This document shows, piece by piece, positions 1 through 24,809 of a stretch of DNA of 25,302 nucleotides. Origin of the DNA: a virus. The notes beneath the pieces are model-generated. The model was not told the DNA's origin. It did not search any database and worked only from the letters and a program-made list of their open reading frames with translations. The stretch is from positions 1-25,302 of the IMG/VR virus record IMGVR_UViG_3300017776_000171, one strand, 5' to 3'. Position 1 is the first letter of the stretch. Each line of letters begins with the position of its first letter. The position numbers were made by a program, and so were the translations under genes.

Positions 1-1530
1 CACGATTGAAGCTCTTCCAACTGGTGGATTACCTCCATTAGCAAACATTCCAGCAATAGGATTAGCACCACCTAAAAAACTTGATGCTTTATTACCAACA
101 AGACCTCCTCCTCCACCACCAAACAACCCACCTAAAGCATTTCCTAAGAAGTTACCAATACCAGACACTGCACGTTGCATTGCAACTTCAACAAGCTTTC
201 TTTTTAAATCATTTAATACACCAATAGCAGCTTGAGCTAATGTTTTTGTTCCCATCACCGCATCAGTAAGACCTGACACAATACCCTGTTCTATTCCTTG
301 ACCTATCTCCATAAATTTCTCTTTTAACTTATCAGCTTCACTTTTTACATTTACAAGACCTTCAGATAATTTTTCTGTACCATTACTAATTGATTCCATG
401 AAAATATTAGATTGCCCTAGATTTTGATTAAACAAATCAGAAGGAGTTAATAGCTCGGTAAAAGCAAGTGTTGTTTCTTGTGTCTTATCTTTTGTTATTT
501 CTACAATTTGACCGTTTTTTACATTAATTTTTCTTATCTTGTTTGTTGATTCGGCTAATTTTTTTTGGGTTGTAAGCTGTTCTTTTAAACTTCTTAATTG
601 TTCAAATGGATTAATTACGTCTATAGCTTTTTTTAAAATACCAAAATTTTTTATTAACTCATTTATTGCTTTAACTGCTGCAATACTAAAATCTAAAACA
701 TCTTTTATTTCTCCTTCTAATTCTGTTCCGATTGTTCTTGCAAGTGTGTCAATCGTATCTTGTAAAGTTGATAATTTTCCATTTAAAGTGTCTGCTTGTT
801 TTGTAGCTCCACCGGCAAAAATACCGCCTTGACTTGTTAAATTAATTAAAGCTTGATTTACTGCATCAGCACCTATTTTTCCTTTACGCATTGCAGATTC
901 AAATTCATCCCCTTGCAGTTTTGTAATTTTTTTAAGTTCGTCAGTTATATTGACTCCTCTTTCTAATAATTGAAGATTCTCTTCCTGTTGTAATTTACCC
1001 TTTGCTCTTATCTGACCGAAGGCTGTAGCTATACCTGTAAGGTCAGCACCAGTAGCACCAGCTACGTCAGATAGTCGTTTTGTTGTGTCAACTAACTCTT
1101 CAGTTTCAAAACCAAAAGCTTTTAATCTTTTTGTTTGTTCTATTAATTCACTACTTGTAAATGGTGTTACAGCACCAAAAGCTTGAAGTTCATCAATGAT
1201 TTTATTGGTTTCTTCAAGTGACCCAGTTAATTGCTCAAGACTTGCTCTTTGGGTTTCTAGTTCTGCTGTTTTAACAAATACAAATCTTGCAGCACCAAGA
1301 ACTGATACTGCGGCTAGTAATGGAGCAAACGCTTTTGTTAAAGTTGAAACACCAGTGCTTGCGGTTTTTGCTGCTCTCCCTGTGTTTCTTAGTGATCTAT
1401 TGCTTCTATCTAATCTGCCTTTTAATTTATCTGTACTACTGCTTAAAGCTTTTGTCTGTTCATTTACACGCTGCAATGGTCTTATTGCATTTTGAGCATC
1501 AACTATTAACTTAACTGTCGATTGTGCCAC
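1..1530 (-). CDS. Tail tape measure protein (C-terminus beyond window)
   Basis: The reading frame stays open from a GTG at 1530 to the left edge, about 510 residues. The N-terminal third (roughly residues 80-230) resembles the phage tape measure N-terminal domain, with segments such as FGFETEELVDTTKRLSDVAG and a GATGADLTGIATAFGQIRAK stretch. Hydrophobic segments lie near residues 68-88. A glycine-rich stretch near residue 475 is followed by FANGGNPPVGRASIV, which usually comes shortly before the end of such proteins, so little is probably missing. The protein would set tail length and end up at the tail tip or in the host envelope. It follows the tail chaperone genes by 25 nt, the normal order in siphophages. 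GTG is the likely start because no upstream ATG or TTG lies in frame close by; an AAAGG lies about 12 nt ahead. Confidence 0.9.
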   Translation of the reverse strand, partial: MAQSTVKLIVDAQNAIRPLQRVNEQTKALSSSTDKLKGRLDRSNRSLRNTGRAAKTASTGVSTLTKAFAPLLAAVSVLGAARFVFVKTAELETQRASLEQLTGSLEETNKIIDELQAFGAVTPFTSSELIEQTKRLKAFGFETEELVDTTKRLSDVAGATGADLTGIATAFGQIRAKGKLQQEENLQLLERGVNITDELKKITKLQGDEFESAMRKGKIGADAVNQALINLTSQGGIFAGGATKQADTLNGKLSTLQDTIDTLARTIGTELEGEIKDVLDFSIAAVKAINELIKNFGILKKAIDVINPFEQLRSLKEQLTTQKKLAESTNKIRKINVKNGQIVEITKDKTQETTLAFTELLTPSDLFNQNLGQSNIFMESISNGTEKLSEGLVNVKSEADKLKEKFMEIGQGIEQGIVSGLTDAVMGTKTLAQAAIGVLNDLKRKLVEVAMQRAVSGIGNFLGNALGGLFGGGGGGLVGNKASSFLGGANPIAGMFANGGNPPVGRASIV

Positions 1531-1555: not shown

Positions 1556-1738
1556 CTACCTTGATTTTGCCTTTTGACGATTCATTTCTTGTTTTTCTCT
1601 TTCATTTTTAACTTCATAATATCCAGCCCAATGTATTAACTCCTCTTCCGTCATAGATTTTCTTAGTTCTTGTACAGATTTTCCTAGTTCTGTTGCGAGA
1701 AAAAACTCAAAGCTTAACCAGTTATCTCGCCTTATTCG
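1556..1738 (-). CDS. Tail assembly chaperone C-terminal extension, reached by -1 frameshift
   Basis: An open frame of 60 codons lies in the -1 frame relative to the upstream chaperone and ends at a TAG at 1556-1558. It begins RIRRDNWLSFEFFLATELGK and ends in a charged tail (NREKQEMNRQ-like). The first ATG in the frame is far inside it, so independent initiation is less likely than fusion. Shifting at the heptamer gives a product of about 176 residues, like the gpGT fusion of lambda or gp13/gp14 products of other siphophages. The extension is thought to bind the tail tube protein while the shared part binds the tape measure. Its stop lies 25 nt before the tape measure start. Confidence 0.78.
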   Translation of the reverse strand, partial: RIRRDNWLSFEFFLATELGKSVQELRKSMTEEELIHWAGYYEVKNEREKQEMNRQKAKSR

Positions 1739-1744
1739 TTTTTT
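1695..1744 (-). promoter_or_regulatory. Programmed -1 ribosomal frameshift signal
   Basis: On the minus strand the zero-frame codons GCA AAA AAC contain the canonical heptamer A AAA AAC (1738-1744). Seven nucleotides later GCGAGA (1725-1730) can pair with TCTCGC (1695-1700), a perfect 6-bp stem closing a 24-nt loop. The zero-frame stop TAA lies within the spacer, so shifting must occur at the heptamer to make the fused product. Heptamer, spacer length and downstream stem all fit the known design of -1 sites in tail chaperone genes. Confidence 0.8.
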
Positions 1745-2085
1745 GCTGTGTCAAGATCAACTTGAATATTCATCATAAATAATTCAAGCTCATTTAAAAC
1801 TGTCTCAGGTAAAAATCTCTGTAAATTCTCAGCATCAGCAGAAGCAAAGGCTTTTGATCCATCTTCATTTTCTGCAAGTTGACAAAGAAGTCTTGTTGAT
1901 ATTGTTAAAGCGTCATCTGTTCCAGCAGCAGCTTGGGCTTGCTTTCTATCAAACCTTGTAAGTGGTGGGAAGAATATTTCTTTTAAAATCTCACCTTGAG
2001 GATTTTTTAGTTCATATTTTCTTCTAGCTGTCATCACATCACTAAAAGCTTCAGTGATAAGGTCTACGTTTCTTTTTGTCGCCAT
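1732..2085 (-). CDS. Tail assembly chaperone, short (unshifted) form
   Basis: The product has 117 residues and lies between the tail tube and tape measure genes, the position of the lambda gpG-like tail assembly chaperones. It is acidic, starts MATKRNVDLITEAFSDVMTA and has no membrane segment. The family coats the tape measure protein while the tail tube polymerises and is absent from the virion. The assignment rests on position, length and the frameshift signal over its last codons, not on a catalytic motif. The last codons GCA AAA AAC GAA TAA contain the slippery heptamer, so part of translation should continue into the -1 frame described separately. Confidence 0.8.
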   Translation of the reverse strand: MATKRNVDLITEAFSDVMTARRKYELKNPQGEILKEIFFPPLTRFDRKQAQAAAGTDDALTISTRLLCQLAENEDGSKAFASADAENLQRFLPETVLNELELFMMNIQVDLDTAKNE

Positions 2086-2113: not shown

Positions 2114-2530
2114 CTATATAGCTGAAGTAATAGCACCGTTTGTTATGAATGAGATATTCACTACTTGAATCTCCCCAAGTGTTGCGCCATACTCAGCACC
2201 TGTAATTAATCCGGCGAATCCTATCTTTTTAGAAGCTGTAGCTGAATCAGGGAATAATTCAAATAATGCATCGCCAGCATCCCCTGTTGTAAATACATCA
2301 TCTATAAAAGCTTGGTAGTCTGAGTTACCACTAGCATCATATAAAAGTTCTGCTGAACCTTCGCCACTGATTAAACCACCGATAAAAGTCTTTGAAGTTG
2401 CTCCCATCGCAGTAGTTTCCATTGAGTCTTTAGAAACAGATAACGACCAAGATCGCAGCTCACCAATATTGGCTTCTGTGCCGCCAGCATTTTCAAACAT
2501 TAGTTTGCCTACATCACCTTTTACAGCCAT
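2114..2530 (-). CDS. Major tail tube protein
   Basis: The product has 138 residues and starts MAVKGDVGKLMFENAGGTEA. It has the alternating polar and small hydrophobic residues expected of the beta-sandwich of siphophage tail tube proteins, including ELRSWSLSVSKDSMETTAMG near residues 24-43 and a C-terminal strand IQVVNISFITNGAITSA. The IGELRSWSLSVSKD stretch followed by the TTAMG segment resembles phage tail tube families. It lies directly before the chaperone gene and after the tail terminator candidate, the expected order. Subunits would stack as hexameric rings around the tape measure protein. No fused immunoglobulin-like C-terminal domain is present. Confidence 0.85.
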   Translation of the reverse strand: MAVKGDVGKLMFENAGGTEANIGELRSWSLSVSKDSMETTAMGATSKTFIGGLISGEGSAELLYDASGNSDYQAFIDDVFTTGDAGDALFELFPDSATASKKIGFAGLITGAEYGATLGEIQVVNISFITNGAITSAI

Positions 2531-12917: not shown

Positions 12918-13028
12918 CTATTTATCATAACCATCAAAATCTTCTAAAAATTCATAGGTTCTTTTGTCATCTATTAAATAAAAAATCATACCGTTATAAG
13001 GATTTTTAGGAAATTTAGTTTTTAACAT
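12918..13028 (-). CDS. Small hypothetical protein, 36 residues
   Basis: ATG at 13026-13028 lies inside the last codons of the cytosine methyltransferase (ATGTTAA overlap), and the frame ends at TAG 12918-12920. The product begins MLKTKFPKNPYNGMIFYLID and ends with an acidic, aromatic stretch, FLEDFDGYDK. The overlapping start and balanced composition support translation. No family recognised. The 48 bases after it, before the next gene, hold nothing I can identify. Confidence 0.5.
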   Translation of the reverse strand: MLKTKFPKNPYNGMIFYLIDDKRTYEFLEDFDGYDK

Positions 13029-14101
13029 TTTTCTAATATTTCTTTGGCAACAGTTTCTGCAACTTTGGCCATCATCATAGGTGGTACTGCACGACCTACT
13101 CTTTCCCATTGTTGTGAGAATGTACCAGTTAATTTAAAATCAGTAGGAAAAGTACTAATTGCTTTTAATTCTTCAATAGTAAAAGTTCGAGGTTCTGTCC
13201 AATGGTATTTATCAGTACTGCCTTGCACTACAGTATTTGCAACACGAAAAGGTGATTGTTTAACATGACTATAAAACTTATTTTTGCCTGTTAATTTCAT
13301 TACAGCCTTCCAAAATGAATCACCAACTTTTGTATTTTCCCAAAGCCTATAAGTCTCTGTACCTTTTACAACTTCTTTGTAGTTATTAGTTTTTTCTACG
13401 TTTGCTAAAGCATCACCAACTGTATAAAAATAAGGCAAAGGTTTAGGGTGTATAGGTGCTAAATTTAAATCTTTTCTAACACCTACAAATATTGTTCTTT
13501 TTCTCATTTGCGGTATACCAGCCCATTGTGCATCAATAATTTTGCATTTTACGTCATAACCGCAATCTTTTAATTCTTGCAAAATTCTTTTAAAATAACC
13601 TTTTGCGGTTCCGATAACTAAACCAGCAACATTTTCTGCAACAAATACTTTAGGTTGTAAACCTTTTAAAATTCTTGCATATTCATAAAAAAGATCATCA
13701 ACCCTTTGTTTTGTATCACTATATTTTTTTTCTACTCCCCAGCCTTTTTCTCTTTTACCACTAATAGAAAAAGAAGCACATGGTGGTGAGCCATCAAATA
13801 AATCTAGTTCACCTTTTTTTAAATTAATTCTTTCTAGTATTTCTTCTGGTCTTATCTGTCTCACGTCATTAGAATCTAAAATGCTGTTTGGGTGGTTAGC
13901 TTTATATGTCTCCTGTGCAGCTTTTATAAACTCATTAGCATATAAAACTCTATAACCAGCCATGCGATAACCTAAACAACTACCGCCACAACCTGAGAAT
14001 GTTGAGACAACATTAAAACCATTCCACTTTATGGCCTCTATCTCAGCCATTGTTGGTATATAAAAAGGTGGTTTATTAATTTTGTTTACCACTCCACTCA
14101 T
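13022..14101 (-). CDS. C5 cytosine DNA methyltransferase
   Basis: From the ATG at 14101 the protein has 359 residues. It shows the ordered motifs of the family: motif I FSGCGG near 35-40, motif IV SPPCASFS with the catalytic cysteine C108, motif VI ENVAG near 156-160, motif VIII QMRKR near 198-202, and motif X GRAVPP near 336-341, a slight variant of GNAVPP. The target-recognition region is residues about 240-305. It would make 5-methylcytosine, probably to protect phage DNA from restriction. No cognate nuclease is nearby, so it is an orphan enzyme. An upstream TTG at 14134 and an internal ATG at 14050 are alternative starts; the gene overlaps the ParB-like gene by 26 nt. Confidence 0.9.
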   Translation of the reverse strand: MSGVVNKINKPPFYIPTMAEIEAIKWNGFNVVSTFSGCGGSCLGYRMAGYRVLYANEFIKAAQETYKANHPNSILDSNDVRQIRPEEILERINLKKGELDLFDGSPPCASFSISGKREKGWGVEKKYSDTKQRVDDLFYEYARILKGLQPKVFVAENVAGLVIGTAKGYFKRILQELKDCGYDVKCKIIDAQWAGIPQMRKRTIFVGVRKDLNLAPIHPKPLPYFYTVGDALANVEKTNNYKEVVKGTETYRLWENTKVGDSFWKAVMKLTGKNKFYSHVKQSPFRVANTVVQGSTDKYHWTEPRTFTIEELKAISTFPTDFKLTGTFSQQWERVGRAVPPMMMAKVAETVAKEILEKC

Positions 14102-14576
14102 ACCCACAGGCTGGACAACGGTGTTCGATTTCAATATCTTCGTCTATTTCTTTAAAATCTTCAGGTGCAGTTTCTTCCCTATGGTCCATTAATTCTGTTA
14201 AATCTTCTGGTTTAAACCAAGGCTCAAGATCATGTTCCATTGAAAGATGGTGCAGCATAGACGCATCCCAATCAGAAAGATCAGAGGATCTGTTATCAGC
14301 TAATGCAAGACCAACTTTTTGATCTTCAGTAAGACCAGTTCGTTTTACAGCAATAATCTCATTACCATCTGATTCGATAACACGAACATTTTCTAGGCCA
14401 GCAGCTTTTGCACCTTCTACAGTACCGTTGCCAGCTAAAACACGACCATCTTCATCAATAACAATGGATCTTGCGGCACCATATTTTTTTAGGGATTCTT
14501 CAATAAGAGTGGCAGAACGGTCAGTTCTTTTTCTAGCATTTTTGTGGTCTGCTTTTAGTTCGTTAATTTTAGTCAT
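14076..14576 (-). CDS. ParB-like nuclease-domain protein with CxxC tail
   Basis: The product has 166 residues. A ParB N-terminal fold is suggested by GAARSIVIDEDGRVLAGNGT near 33-52 and GAKAAGLENVRVIE near 55-68. The C-terminus carries a lone CPACGYEW (C154, C157), half a zinc ribbon. Phage ParB-like proteins may nick DNA, bind DNA or use NTPs; they often lie beside orphan cytosine methyltransferases, as here, where the two genes overlap. No second ParB DNA-binding helix-turn-helix is seen, so it is not a full partition protein. The partner relation to the methylase is inferred from context only. Confidence 0.82.
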   Translation of the reverse strand: MTKINELKADHKNARKRTDRSATLIEESLKKYGAARSIVIDEDGRVLAGNGTVEGAKAAGLENVRVIESDGNEIIAVKRTGLTEDQKVGLALADNRSSDLSDWDASMLHHLSMEHDLEPWFKPEDLTELMDHREETAPEDFKEIDEDIEIEHRCPACGYEWSGKQN

Positions 14577-14578
14577 AG

Positions 14579-14812
14579 TTATTTGTTTTTTAAAATTTTA
14601 GCAATTTCAGATAAATGAGTCTCTACATCTTTAAATGTATCAACAAAAGTTGAATGTTCTGTTTGTTCAAATAATCCGTCATTTATATCTCTTAAATGTT
14701 CTGATTTTGTTTTAATAGTTTTTGTTAAATCATAAATTGAATCATTTATATTGAACAATTGGTCTCTTGTATCTTTTAATAAATGTAAAAGTCTGGTTTC
14801 AAAATCAGTCAT
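14579..14812 (-). CDS. Coiled-coil small protein, 77 residues
   Basis: ATG at 14812 overlaps the stop of the previous gene by eight bases, a more natural start than an ATG 60 bases further upstream inside that gene. The product begins MTDFETRLLHLLKDTRDQLF and continues with INDSIYDLTKTIKTKSEHLR, a helical, heptad-like pattern, and ends in KILKNK. No membrane segment or cysteines. It would probably oligomerise; no family recognised. Confidence 0.6.
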   Translation of the reverse strand: MTDFETRLLHLLKDTRDQLFNINDSIYDLTKTIKTKSEHLRDINDGLFEQTEHSTFVDTFKDVETHLSEIAKILKNK

Positions 14813-15080
14813 GATCGTAACCTCTGTTAAGTTGTATTGTCCAATTTTTAAAACTTTGGAATGTGTGTCCATGTTTTTCTGTTTTACTTAATTGACCTTT
14901 TTTATCTACGGGTATTATGGTGACCCAAACATCATCAAATATCAACATATCATCTGTTCCAAGTCCATCACATAAATCAACATAAAAATCATGAATACGA
15001 AAATTTTTTCCATTTTCGTCAGTTAATAATGCCCCTTTAAGATCATCTAGTGACAATGATGACTCAATATTAAGCTTCAT
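14805..15080 (-). CDS. Hypothetical protein, 91 residues
   Basis: The product begins MKLNIESSLSLDDLKGALLT, with an acidic alpha/beta composition and aromatic residues such as DDVWVTIIPV in the middle. It carries the best ribosome binding site seen in the window: AAGGAGG, four bases before the ATG, lying inside the end of the upstream gene, whose stop overlaps the start as ATGA. It is therefore likely to be made in larger amount than its neighbours. I do not recognise the family. Its location between replication-type genes and the ParB/methylase pair suggests DNA metabolism or its regulation. Confidence 0.65.
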   Translation of the reverse strand: MKLNIESSLSLDDLKGALLTDENGKNFRIHDFYVDLCDGLGTDDMLIFDDVWVTIIPVDKKGQLSKTEKHGHTFQSFKNWTIQLNRGYDHD

Positions 15081-23285: not shown

Positions 23286-23494
23286 TGGAAAATATAAAAA
23301 AACAAAAACTTATAAAAGAACTGCAAAGACAGGTTGCAGATTTGCGTAAATTTCAAGAAGATTTTAAAAAAAATATTCCTGATGGTGATAATATGAATTT
23401 AAGGGATTTACAATATATGAATGGAATAATGGAAAAAATGAAGTTAGAACATGAAACAGTTTTAAGAGAATATTTCAACTTTAAAGAATCATGA
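23285..23494 (+). CDS. Coiled-coil protein, 69 residues
   Basis: ATG at 23285 overlaps the preceding TAA (TAATG) and is preferred over an in-frame ATG 12 bases upstream. The product begins MENIKKQKLIKELQRQVADL and is helical and highly charged, with regular leucine/isoleucine spacing, broken once by PDGDNMN near residues 32-38. It probably dimerises. It overlaps the next gene by ATGA. No family recognised. Confidence 0.62.
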   Translation: MENIKKQKLIKELQRQVADLRKFQEDFKKNIPDGDNMNLRDLQYMNGIMEKMKLEHETVLREYFNFKES

Positions 23495-23772
23495 GTGATC
23501 CAAAAAAACTTTTTCGTTTAAAAGAAATTAGGAGGAAAAACCTTGAAAAAAATTTATTAGATGTTGAACTAAAAGGCTATGACCATTATGTTTTTATGAA
23601 CGATAGAAACAAAGCACAAGTTGTAAGTAAAGATGGCAAATGGGTTACTGAACATATAAGAACAGCAATTCTTAAATTTAATTATGAAGTTGATAAACTA
23701 GAAAAATTAAAGGTCAAAGATTTTACAGATAAAGAGGTTATTGAATATGAAAAAACTTTTTTATCGGGTTAG
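23491..23772 (+). CDS. Hypothetical protein, 93 residues
   Basis: The product begins MSDPKKLFRLKEIRRKNLEK, with a basic helix followed by a small beta section (YDHYVFMNDRNKAQVV and SKDGKWVTEH) and a charged helical end. It is the last plus-strand gene of the recombination operon. Its final 35 bases overlap the 3' end of a convergent minus-strand gene. No terminator is obvious at the junction. No family recognised. Confidence 0.6.
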   Translation: MSDPKKLFRLKEIRRKNLEKNLLDVELKGYDHYVFMNDRNKAQVVSKDGKWVTEHIRTAILKFNYEVDKLEKLKVKDFTDKEVIEYEKTFLSG

Positions 23773-24413: not shown

Positions 24414-24809
24414 ATGGCAGAAGAGATTAAAAAAGGTCCACTACAAAAATTAAAAGAAAACATTACTGATAAGGAGGAGCAATTAGCTTTTATATCTGTA
24501 ATCGTAAGACTTGGTGTTGTCGCTTGGAGTGGCTTTATAGTGTCCCTTAACTACATTTCTTTGCCGGGCTACAGCAATGAGCCAAAGGATATAACTTTTC
24601 CAGCAAGTTTGCTGACAGGAGCCCTTGCCAGTTTTGGTTTAGAAGGTGCTAAAAAAAGAGGTGATGGTACTTTTAAACCTGATGAAAAACCATTAAACAA
24701 GAAAGAAGTTGAAGCGTTACTAGCACAACAATCTGGTGGTTATCAAACAGTTAGAATAGAAACACCTATAAAAATTATTGGTACTAAAGTAGTTGATCCA
24801 AAAAAATGA
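24414..24809 (+). CDS. Holin-like membrane protein, 131 residues
   Basis: The product begins MAEEIKKGPLQKLKENITDK. It has two hydrophobic segments, near residues 27-48 (ISVIVRLGVVAWSGFIVSLN) and 60-79 (ITFPASLLTGALASFGLEGA), joined by a short loop with proline and glycine, then a charged cytoplasmic C-terminus with KKRGDGTFKPDEKPLNKKEV. This layout matches proteins annotated as holins in marine phages, but no lysin gene is in view. It overlaps the next gene as ATGA. Divergent from the minus-strand trio. Confidence 0.65.
   Translation: MAEEIKKGPLQKLKENITDKEEQLAFISVIVRLGVVAWSGFIVSLNYISLPGYSNEPKDITFPASLLTGALASFGLEGAKKRGDGTFKPDEKPLNKKEVEALLAQQSGGYQTVRIETPIKIIGTKVVDPKK

Follow-up and report, generated by a model that had tools for sequence, protein, structure and literature searches.

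The DNA analysed here, referred to throughout as the window, is the 25,302-base stretch of IMGVR_UViG_3300017776_000171. On its minus strand, a pair of overlapping reading frames sits between flanking tail genes, such that the gene order is major tail protein, G, T and tape measure protein. The features of the locus are as follows, from 5' to 3' along that strand:

3126-2704, minus strand: tail terminator gene.
2114..2530, minus strand: major tail protein gene, the upstream neighbour (phrog_10528, E 5.4e-40).
1732..2085, minus strand: G-like tail assembly chaperone ORF of 117 aa, zero frame (phrog_20784; predicted HK97 chaperone fold).
1738..1744, minus strand: slippery heptamer A_AAA_AAC in the zero frame (read from the sequence and from relatives).
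1731..1737, minus strand: spacer GAATAAG of 7 nt (read from the sequence).
1732..1734, minus strand: zero-frame stop TAA within the spacer (read from the sequence).
1695..1730, minus strand: putative stimulatory hairpin with 6 bp GCGAGA/TCTCGC, a one-base bulge and an inner 4 bp AACU/AGUU.
1730..1725 and 1700..1695, minus strand: outer stem arms GCGAGA and TCTCGC, respectively.
1556..1738, minus strand: T-like extension of 60 codons and a stop, read in the -1 frame (phrog_337; dN/dS).
1..1530, minus strand: tape measure protein gene, the downstream neighbour, truncated at the end of the window (TMP_3, E 9e-23).

The last zero-frame codons of G are gca aaa aac gaa TAA, which puts the heptamer in the zero frame and upstream of the zero-frame stop, as expected of a -1 frameshift site. 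From 1738 onward the -1 frame has no stop until a TAG at 1558-1556, and 116 residues of G joined to the 60 encoded by the extension would yield a product of 176 residues. The first-pass annotation had proposed such an arrangement, and its heptamer was located exactly to the base at 1744-1738, together with the 7-base spacer it described and the 60-codon extension with a 176-residue product. It was likewise correct that the extension lacks a start near its beginning, the earliest ATG, GTG or TTG in the window being an ATG at codon 29 of 60. Two other details needed amendment. The 6-bp GCGAGA/TCTCGC stem is present, but the full hairpin is larger, with the bulge and the AACU/AGUU helix added; and the zero-frame stop does lie in the spacer of the window, but in 35/114 window-group sequences it falls in the hairpin loop instead, starting 21 nt after the heptamer.

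For the G protein, the best family match is phrog_20784 (E 3e-27), which is of unknown function. No Pfam family matches the G of the window, and Phage_TAC_13 from that database matches 1/33 sequences of the G alignment A4 (E 0.0044). Sequence-profile searches of the PDB with G (A4) and with T (alignment A5) found no relative; the best matches were to unrelated molecules, with E-values of 0.53 and 0.038, respectively. The AlphaFold2 model of G (pLDDT 88.3) has as its best PDB match the HK97 tail assembly chaperone 2ob9 (Foldseek E 6e-4, Z 9.6, 99 residues), followed by YqbN 3klu (Z 6.6), and the G part is thus predicted to have a tail assembly chaperone fold. The extension of the window matches the tail protein family phrog_337 (E 8.9e-7), as do 25/27 of the extensions scanned; the tail family phrog_14766 was also matched, and phrog_25875, a family named tail assembly chaperone, gave a weak match (E 0.06). 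Pfam matches of the extension were to eukaryotic families, below the cut-off, and were rejected. Judged by these profile matches, the extension appears to be homologous to T-type tail proteins. Within the window group, the median dN/dS is 0.103 over 57 codons of G and 0.144 over 40 codons of the extension. Both frames are under purifying selection.

Relatives were gathered in seven scans of viral contigs, which gave 518 loci; adding the window itself and five loci taken from records of named phages brings the set to 524 unique stretches, sorted into six groups that are each named by their query. Because six of the scans returned only the best 80 loci each (the seventh returned 38), close relatives are over-represented, and because some contigs came from several scans, so that loci are not independent, we counted distinct sequences. 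Both halves were found in 519/524 stretches, corresponding to 414 distinct sequences; the other five, having no T match, were dropped. Among the matches listed, none of the 414 distinct sequences has G and T in one frame. In the window group, all 117/117 distinct sequences have a -1 extension behind A_AAA_AAC (98) or A_AAA_AAA (19), and in the S-H1 group, which includes the isolate S-H1, the extension follows A_AAA_AAC in 65/65. All 24/24 distinct -1 sequences of the KBS-S-2A group have a canonical heptamer, 23 of them A_AAA_AAC or A_AAA_AAA (6 of which are also readable as C_CCA_AAA) and one G_GGA_AAG; these group counts, too, are for the matches listed. Sequences that stop short of the end of T were excluded from the hairpin, codon and dN/dS analyses, as was the one +1 row of the KBS set, which left 114/117 in the window group, 64/65 in the S-H1 group, 68/72 in the MED4-117 group, 24/25 in the KBS set, and 65/66 and 67/69 in the two groups with a +1 extension. 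Two further phages were read by eye and enter no count: in Moraxella phage Mcat9, A_AAA_AAC precedes a -1 extension, and in cyanophage S-2L, the annotated tail assembly chaperone carries C_CCA_AAG and is accompanied by an unannotated -1 T extension (L247 1151-1537).

The heptamer by itself is borderline evidence, because the genome is A-rich and an X_XXY_YYZ motif arises in the last six codons of codon-shuffled copies of G at a frequency of 0.047. Taking 31 ORFs of the window as genes, we counted 33 in-frame A_AAA_AAN sites, as compared to 23.1 +/- 4.6 after codon shuffling. With the heptamer so near to chance on its own, the verdict on the site therefore rests on the relatives. Late heptamers in two other ORFs, 14579-14872 and 24414-24809, were considered and rejected, since the -1 frame there runs after only a few codons into the ATG of the following ORF. 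The former (minus strand) has its A_AAA_AAC four codons before the end, with the -1 frame entering ORF 14576-14076, which has its own ATG just downstream; the heptamer there is probably due to chance. The adjacent positions 13022-14576 (minus strand) hold what we take to be a cytosine-5 DNA methyltransferase-like ORF adjoining a ParB-like ORF. Elsewhere in the window, ORF 23491-23772 (plus strand) has T_TTT_TTA near its end and a -1 frame that, as far as it was read, has no stop over some 30 codons or more; it faces the minus-strand ORF 24013-23738.

A second line of evidence comes from the hairpin. Folding energies were compared with those of sequences in which codons had been redrawn synonymously in the extension frame, such that the protein was kept; the sample was 30/114 sequences of the window group, 30/64 of the S-H1 group, 30/68 of the MED4-117 group, 24/24 of the KBS group, and 30/65 and 30/67 of the +1 groups. 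For the 30 window-group sequences the mean energy is -11.7 kcal/mol, as opposed to -4.6 kcal/mol for the redraws (mean z -3.54; p <= 0.05 in 29/30), and the hairpin of the window itself has -11.8 kcal/mol. The S-H1 group (mean z -3.26; p <= 0.05 in 30/30) and the KBS-S-2A group (mean z -3.16; p <= 0.05 in 22/24) gave similar results. Since the real sequences fold far better than the protein-preserving redraws, the stem is not a product of chance. No excess was detected in the 60 sequences tested from the +1 groups (mean z -0.39 and 0.01, with 4/30 and 1/30 passing), and these groups therefore serve as an internal control for the test. The outer stem starts at offset 7 in 95/114 window-group, 49/64 S-H1 and 22/24 KBS sequences. 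Thus, the heptamer is followed at a short spacer by a downstream structure exceeding what the protein sequence demands, as expected of a -1 frameshift signal.

By eye, the outer stems differ by group, being GCGAGA/TCTCGC in most of the window group and GCAGG/CCTGC or GGAGC/GCTCC elsewhere. Covariation was counted in 41 of the 53 distinct window-group hairpins; the other 12 lack GCGAGA/TCTCGC and have a G-U-rich stem, with AGGGGA opposite a pyrimidine run, and were left out because their stem lies in another register. In the 41, 98.5% of cells are paired, and one C-G pair is replaced by U-A in 3 and by the wobble pair U-G in 6, with two of the five shuffle measures unremarkable (250/500 each). 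The outer six base pairs contribute little covariation because they hardly vary in the window group, four of the six being invariant. In the S-H1 group, 51 distinct hairpins have 20 double-changed cells, a count that 0/500 shuffles reached, whereas two other measures do not stand out (339/500 and 353/500). As shuffles leave relatedness in, we regard the protein-preserving folding test as the stronger evidence.

These observations bear on three other explanations of the locus. The extension could be a small protein in its own right, translated by reinitiation or internal initiation once G has ended, a reading suggested by the position of T directly after G and by the S-H1 record, where a 47-aa ORF (AZB50580) covering the 3' part of T (L002 3875-4018) is annotated from an internal TTG. 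However, a protein starting at codon 29 of 60 would lose the conserved DNW..FEFFLATELGK stretch that precedes this codon, the codon immediately past the heptamer already encodes Arg in the -1 frame in 112/114 window-group sequences, and the hairpin excess would be left without a role, such that we consider a separate protein very improbable. Slippage by RNA polymerase on the A run, which would put the shift in the transcript rather than the ribosome, strikes us as equally improbable: the run has six A residues, and seven in some relatives, but a run of A6 is short for polymerase slippage, the MED4-117 group arrives at this frame from a run of only three A residues, and a hairpin placed at a constant short distance agrees with a pausing ribosome. 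Least credible of all is that heptamer and stem are coincidental and the frame break a pseudogene or sequencing error, for which the chance frequency of the heptamer alone could be cited, but which is at odds with the same frame relation in every distinct sequence of the window group and in isolate S-H1, with purifying selection on both frames and with the lack of any fused single ORF among the 414 distinct sequences.

Taken together, the relatives, the hairpin excess, selection, the gene order and the predicted fold of G support the original proposal, and we are highly confident that the site is a programmed -1 frameshift in the lambda-type G/GT tail assembly chaperone gene of a siphophage related to marine cyanophages. 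That ribosomes slip here, how often they do so and what the two proteins do are matters we infer from homology, gene order and the signal. Most ribosomes would read G and end at the TAA to give the 117-aa chaperone, while a minority would pause at the hairpin 7 nt downstream with tRNA-Lys on AAA and tRNA-Asn on AAC; both tRNAs would then move back one base, and 60 more codons would be translated to give a 176-aa GT protein. In the lambda model, as outlined in parts of PMC5009743, G has the tape measure protein as its binding partner, GT recruits major tail protein through its T part, and how often the ribosome shifts determines their ratio. By analogy, the G protein of the window may coat the tape measure protein, its T part may recruit the major tail protein and the slip rate may set the G:GT ratio. 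Sections of PMC4066793 and PMC5009743 describe A_AAA_AAC as shifting with low efficiency in E. coli; a similarly low rate in cyanobacteria would be in keeping with a minor product.

The first-pass annotation had suggested comparing the heptamer in related phages, and had counted relatives in which it is lost while the extension is kept as evidence against the site. The heptamer is kept throughout the window's own group (117/117), but relatives of that kind do literally exist, namely the MED4-117 group (72/72) and the 136 distinct +1 sequences. Because they carry apparent replacement shift sites, they limit how widely the heptamer applies and leave the verdict on the window group as it is.

The MED4-117-type phages are Prochlorococcus siphophages. 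The -1 extension is kept in 72/72 distinct sequences of this group among the matches listed, and none of the 72 has an X_XXY_YYZ motif in the permitted interval. What they have is NNA_AAG_GAA_TCY_TAA, with NNA_AAG_GAA in 72/72 (L003 391-926; L165-L244). The codon before AAG is GCA, GTA, ACA or ATA, ending in A in 68/68 full-length sequences; on a tree of G, 5 changes fell on its first base, 13 on its second and none on its third. The other fourfold sites of G in this group changed 9.2 times on average, and since 2/27 of them likewise have zero changes, the invariant wobble A is not decisive alone. Most of the variation in the -1 frame from AAA on is synonymous. The hairpin excess is weaker (mean z -2.1; 24/30 at 0.05 and 0/30 at 0.01), and the spacer length is not constant. 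Such a pattern would fit the slipping of a single tRNA-Lys on A_AAG, which portions of PMC4066793 and PMC5009743 give as the most efficient tetramer in E. coli.

In the L356-like and AG-345-A17-like groups (L246, L447-L526; L350-L360, L367-L446), the extension lies in the +1 frame, amounting to 136 distinct sequences among the matches listed, one row of the KBS set included. The apparent site, within a narrow permitted interval, is AAA_AGC, rarely with AGT or AGG, and the preceding codon is TTG, TTA or ATG in 136/136, an arrangement that sets a stop of the +1 frame immediately next to the slip codon. The apparent recoding modes of the family are as follows:

Mode 1: -1 on the heptamer with a hairpin, in the window, S-H1 and KBS-S-2A groups.
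Mode 2: -1 by a single tRNA-Lys on NNA_AAG, in the MED4-117 group.
Mode 3: +1 on AAA_AGC without a stabilised hairpin, in the L356 and AG-345-A17 groups.

On a tree of 92 representative G proteins, built by a quick method from few columns and having long deep branches, the three modes need three changes. The L356 group forms one clade (support 97) inside a clade of KBS and L356 sequences (93), its nesting among the KBS rows having a support of only 82; as to whether +1 arose once or twice, the starred branches force only one change. The G proteins of the KBS-S-2A and L356 groups are about 70% alike. We think it probable that one chaperone family of aquatic phages keeps T while exchanging its recoding signal among three modes, with selection acting on the extended protein rather than on the mode of shifting and with the direction of the shift having switched between G proteins as similar as these. 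As +1 and non-heptamer frameshifts are already known in phages (described in parts of PMC5009743 and, for PRFect, of PMC10885494), such switching is variation rather than a new mechanism, and the persistence of the extension despite the differing modes is the one mildly surprising result.

Simple gene calling does miss the extension, as had been predicted: the MED4-117, MED4-184 and KBS-S-2A records have no CDS of its own for T. In the MED4-117 record (JF974321.1), G and T each match twice, at positions 56-232 and about 37900-38100, which suggests that the ends of the record are repeated. A literature search that covered few subscription journals found no title describing the frameshift site in these cyanophages. 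The results thus correct the annotation of a common group of marine phages, in which T is without a CDS or, as in S-H1, mis-started. They also provide a set of relatives for comparison in which a single gene family apparently uses three recoding modes, and in which one can study the ratio of chaperone forms that selection favours and the way the direction of shifting can switch without loss of the extension.

The locus resembles the G/GT system of lambda in its gene order, in having a short chaperone and a minor -1 extended form, and in the position of the shift near the end of G. The lambda shift site is G_GGA_AAG, whereas the window has A_AAA_AAC and a 6+4-bp hairpin at 7 nt, lambda being compared by description only. 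Passages of PMC5009743 describe the G/GT frameshift as widely conserved among long-tailed double-stranded DNA phages. The HK97 chaperone (PDB 2ob9) is the closest fold to the modelled G of the window, yet the two have 9% sequence identity. For the haloarchaeal virus HCTV-2, A_AAA_AAC is given as the g-t site in part of PMC5009743; compared by description, this is the same heptamer in the same gene pair, but in a virus with an archaeal host. The NNA_AAG of the MED4-117 relatives, rather than the site of the window, recalls the A_AAG tetramer frameshifting of IS1222 and the IS3 family, as presented in sections of PMC4066793 and PMC5009743, with the difference from the insertion elements that this putative site lies in a tail chaperone gene.
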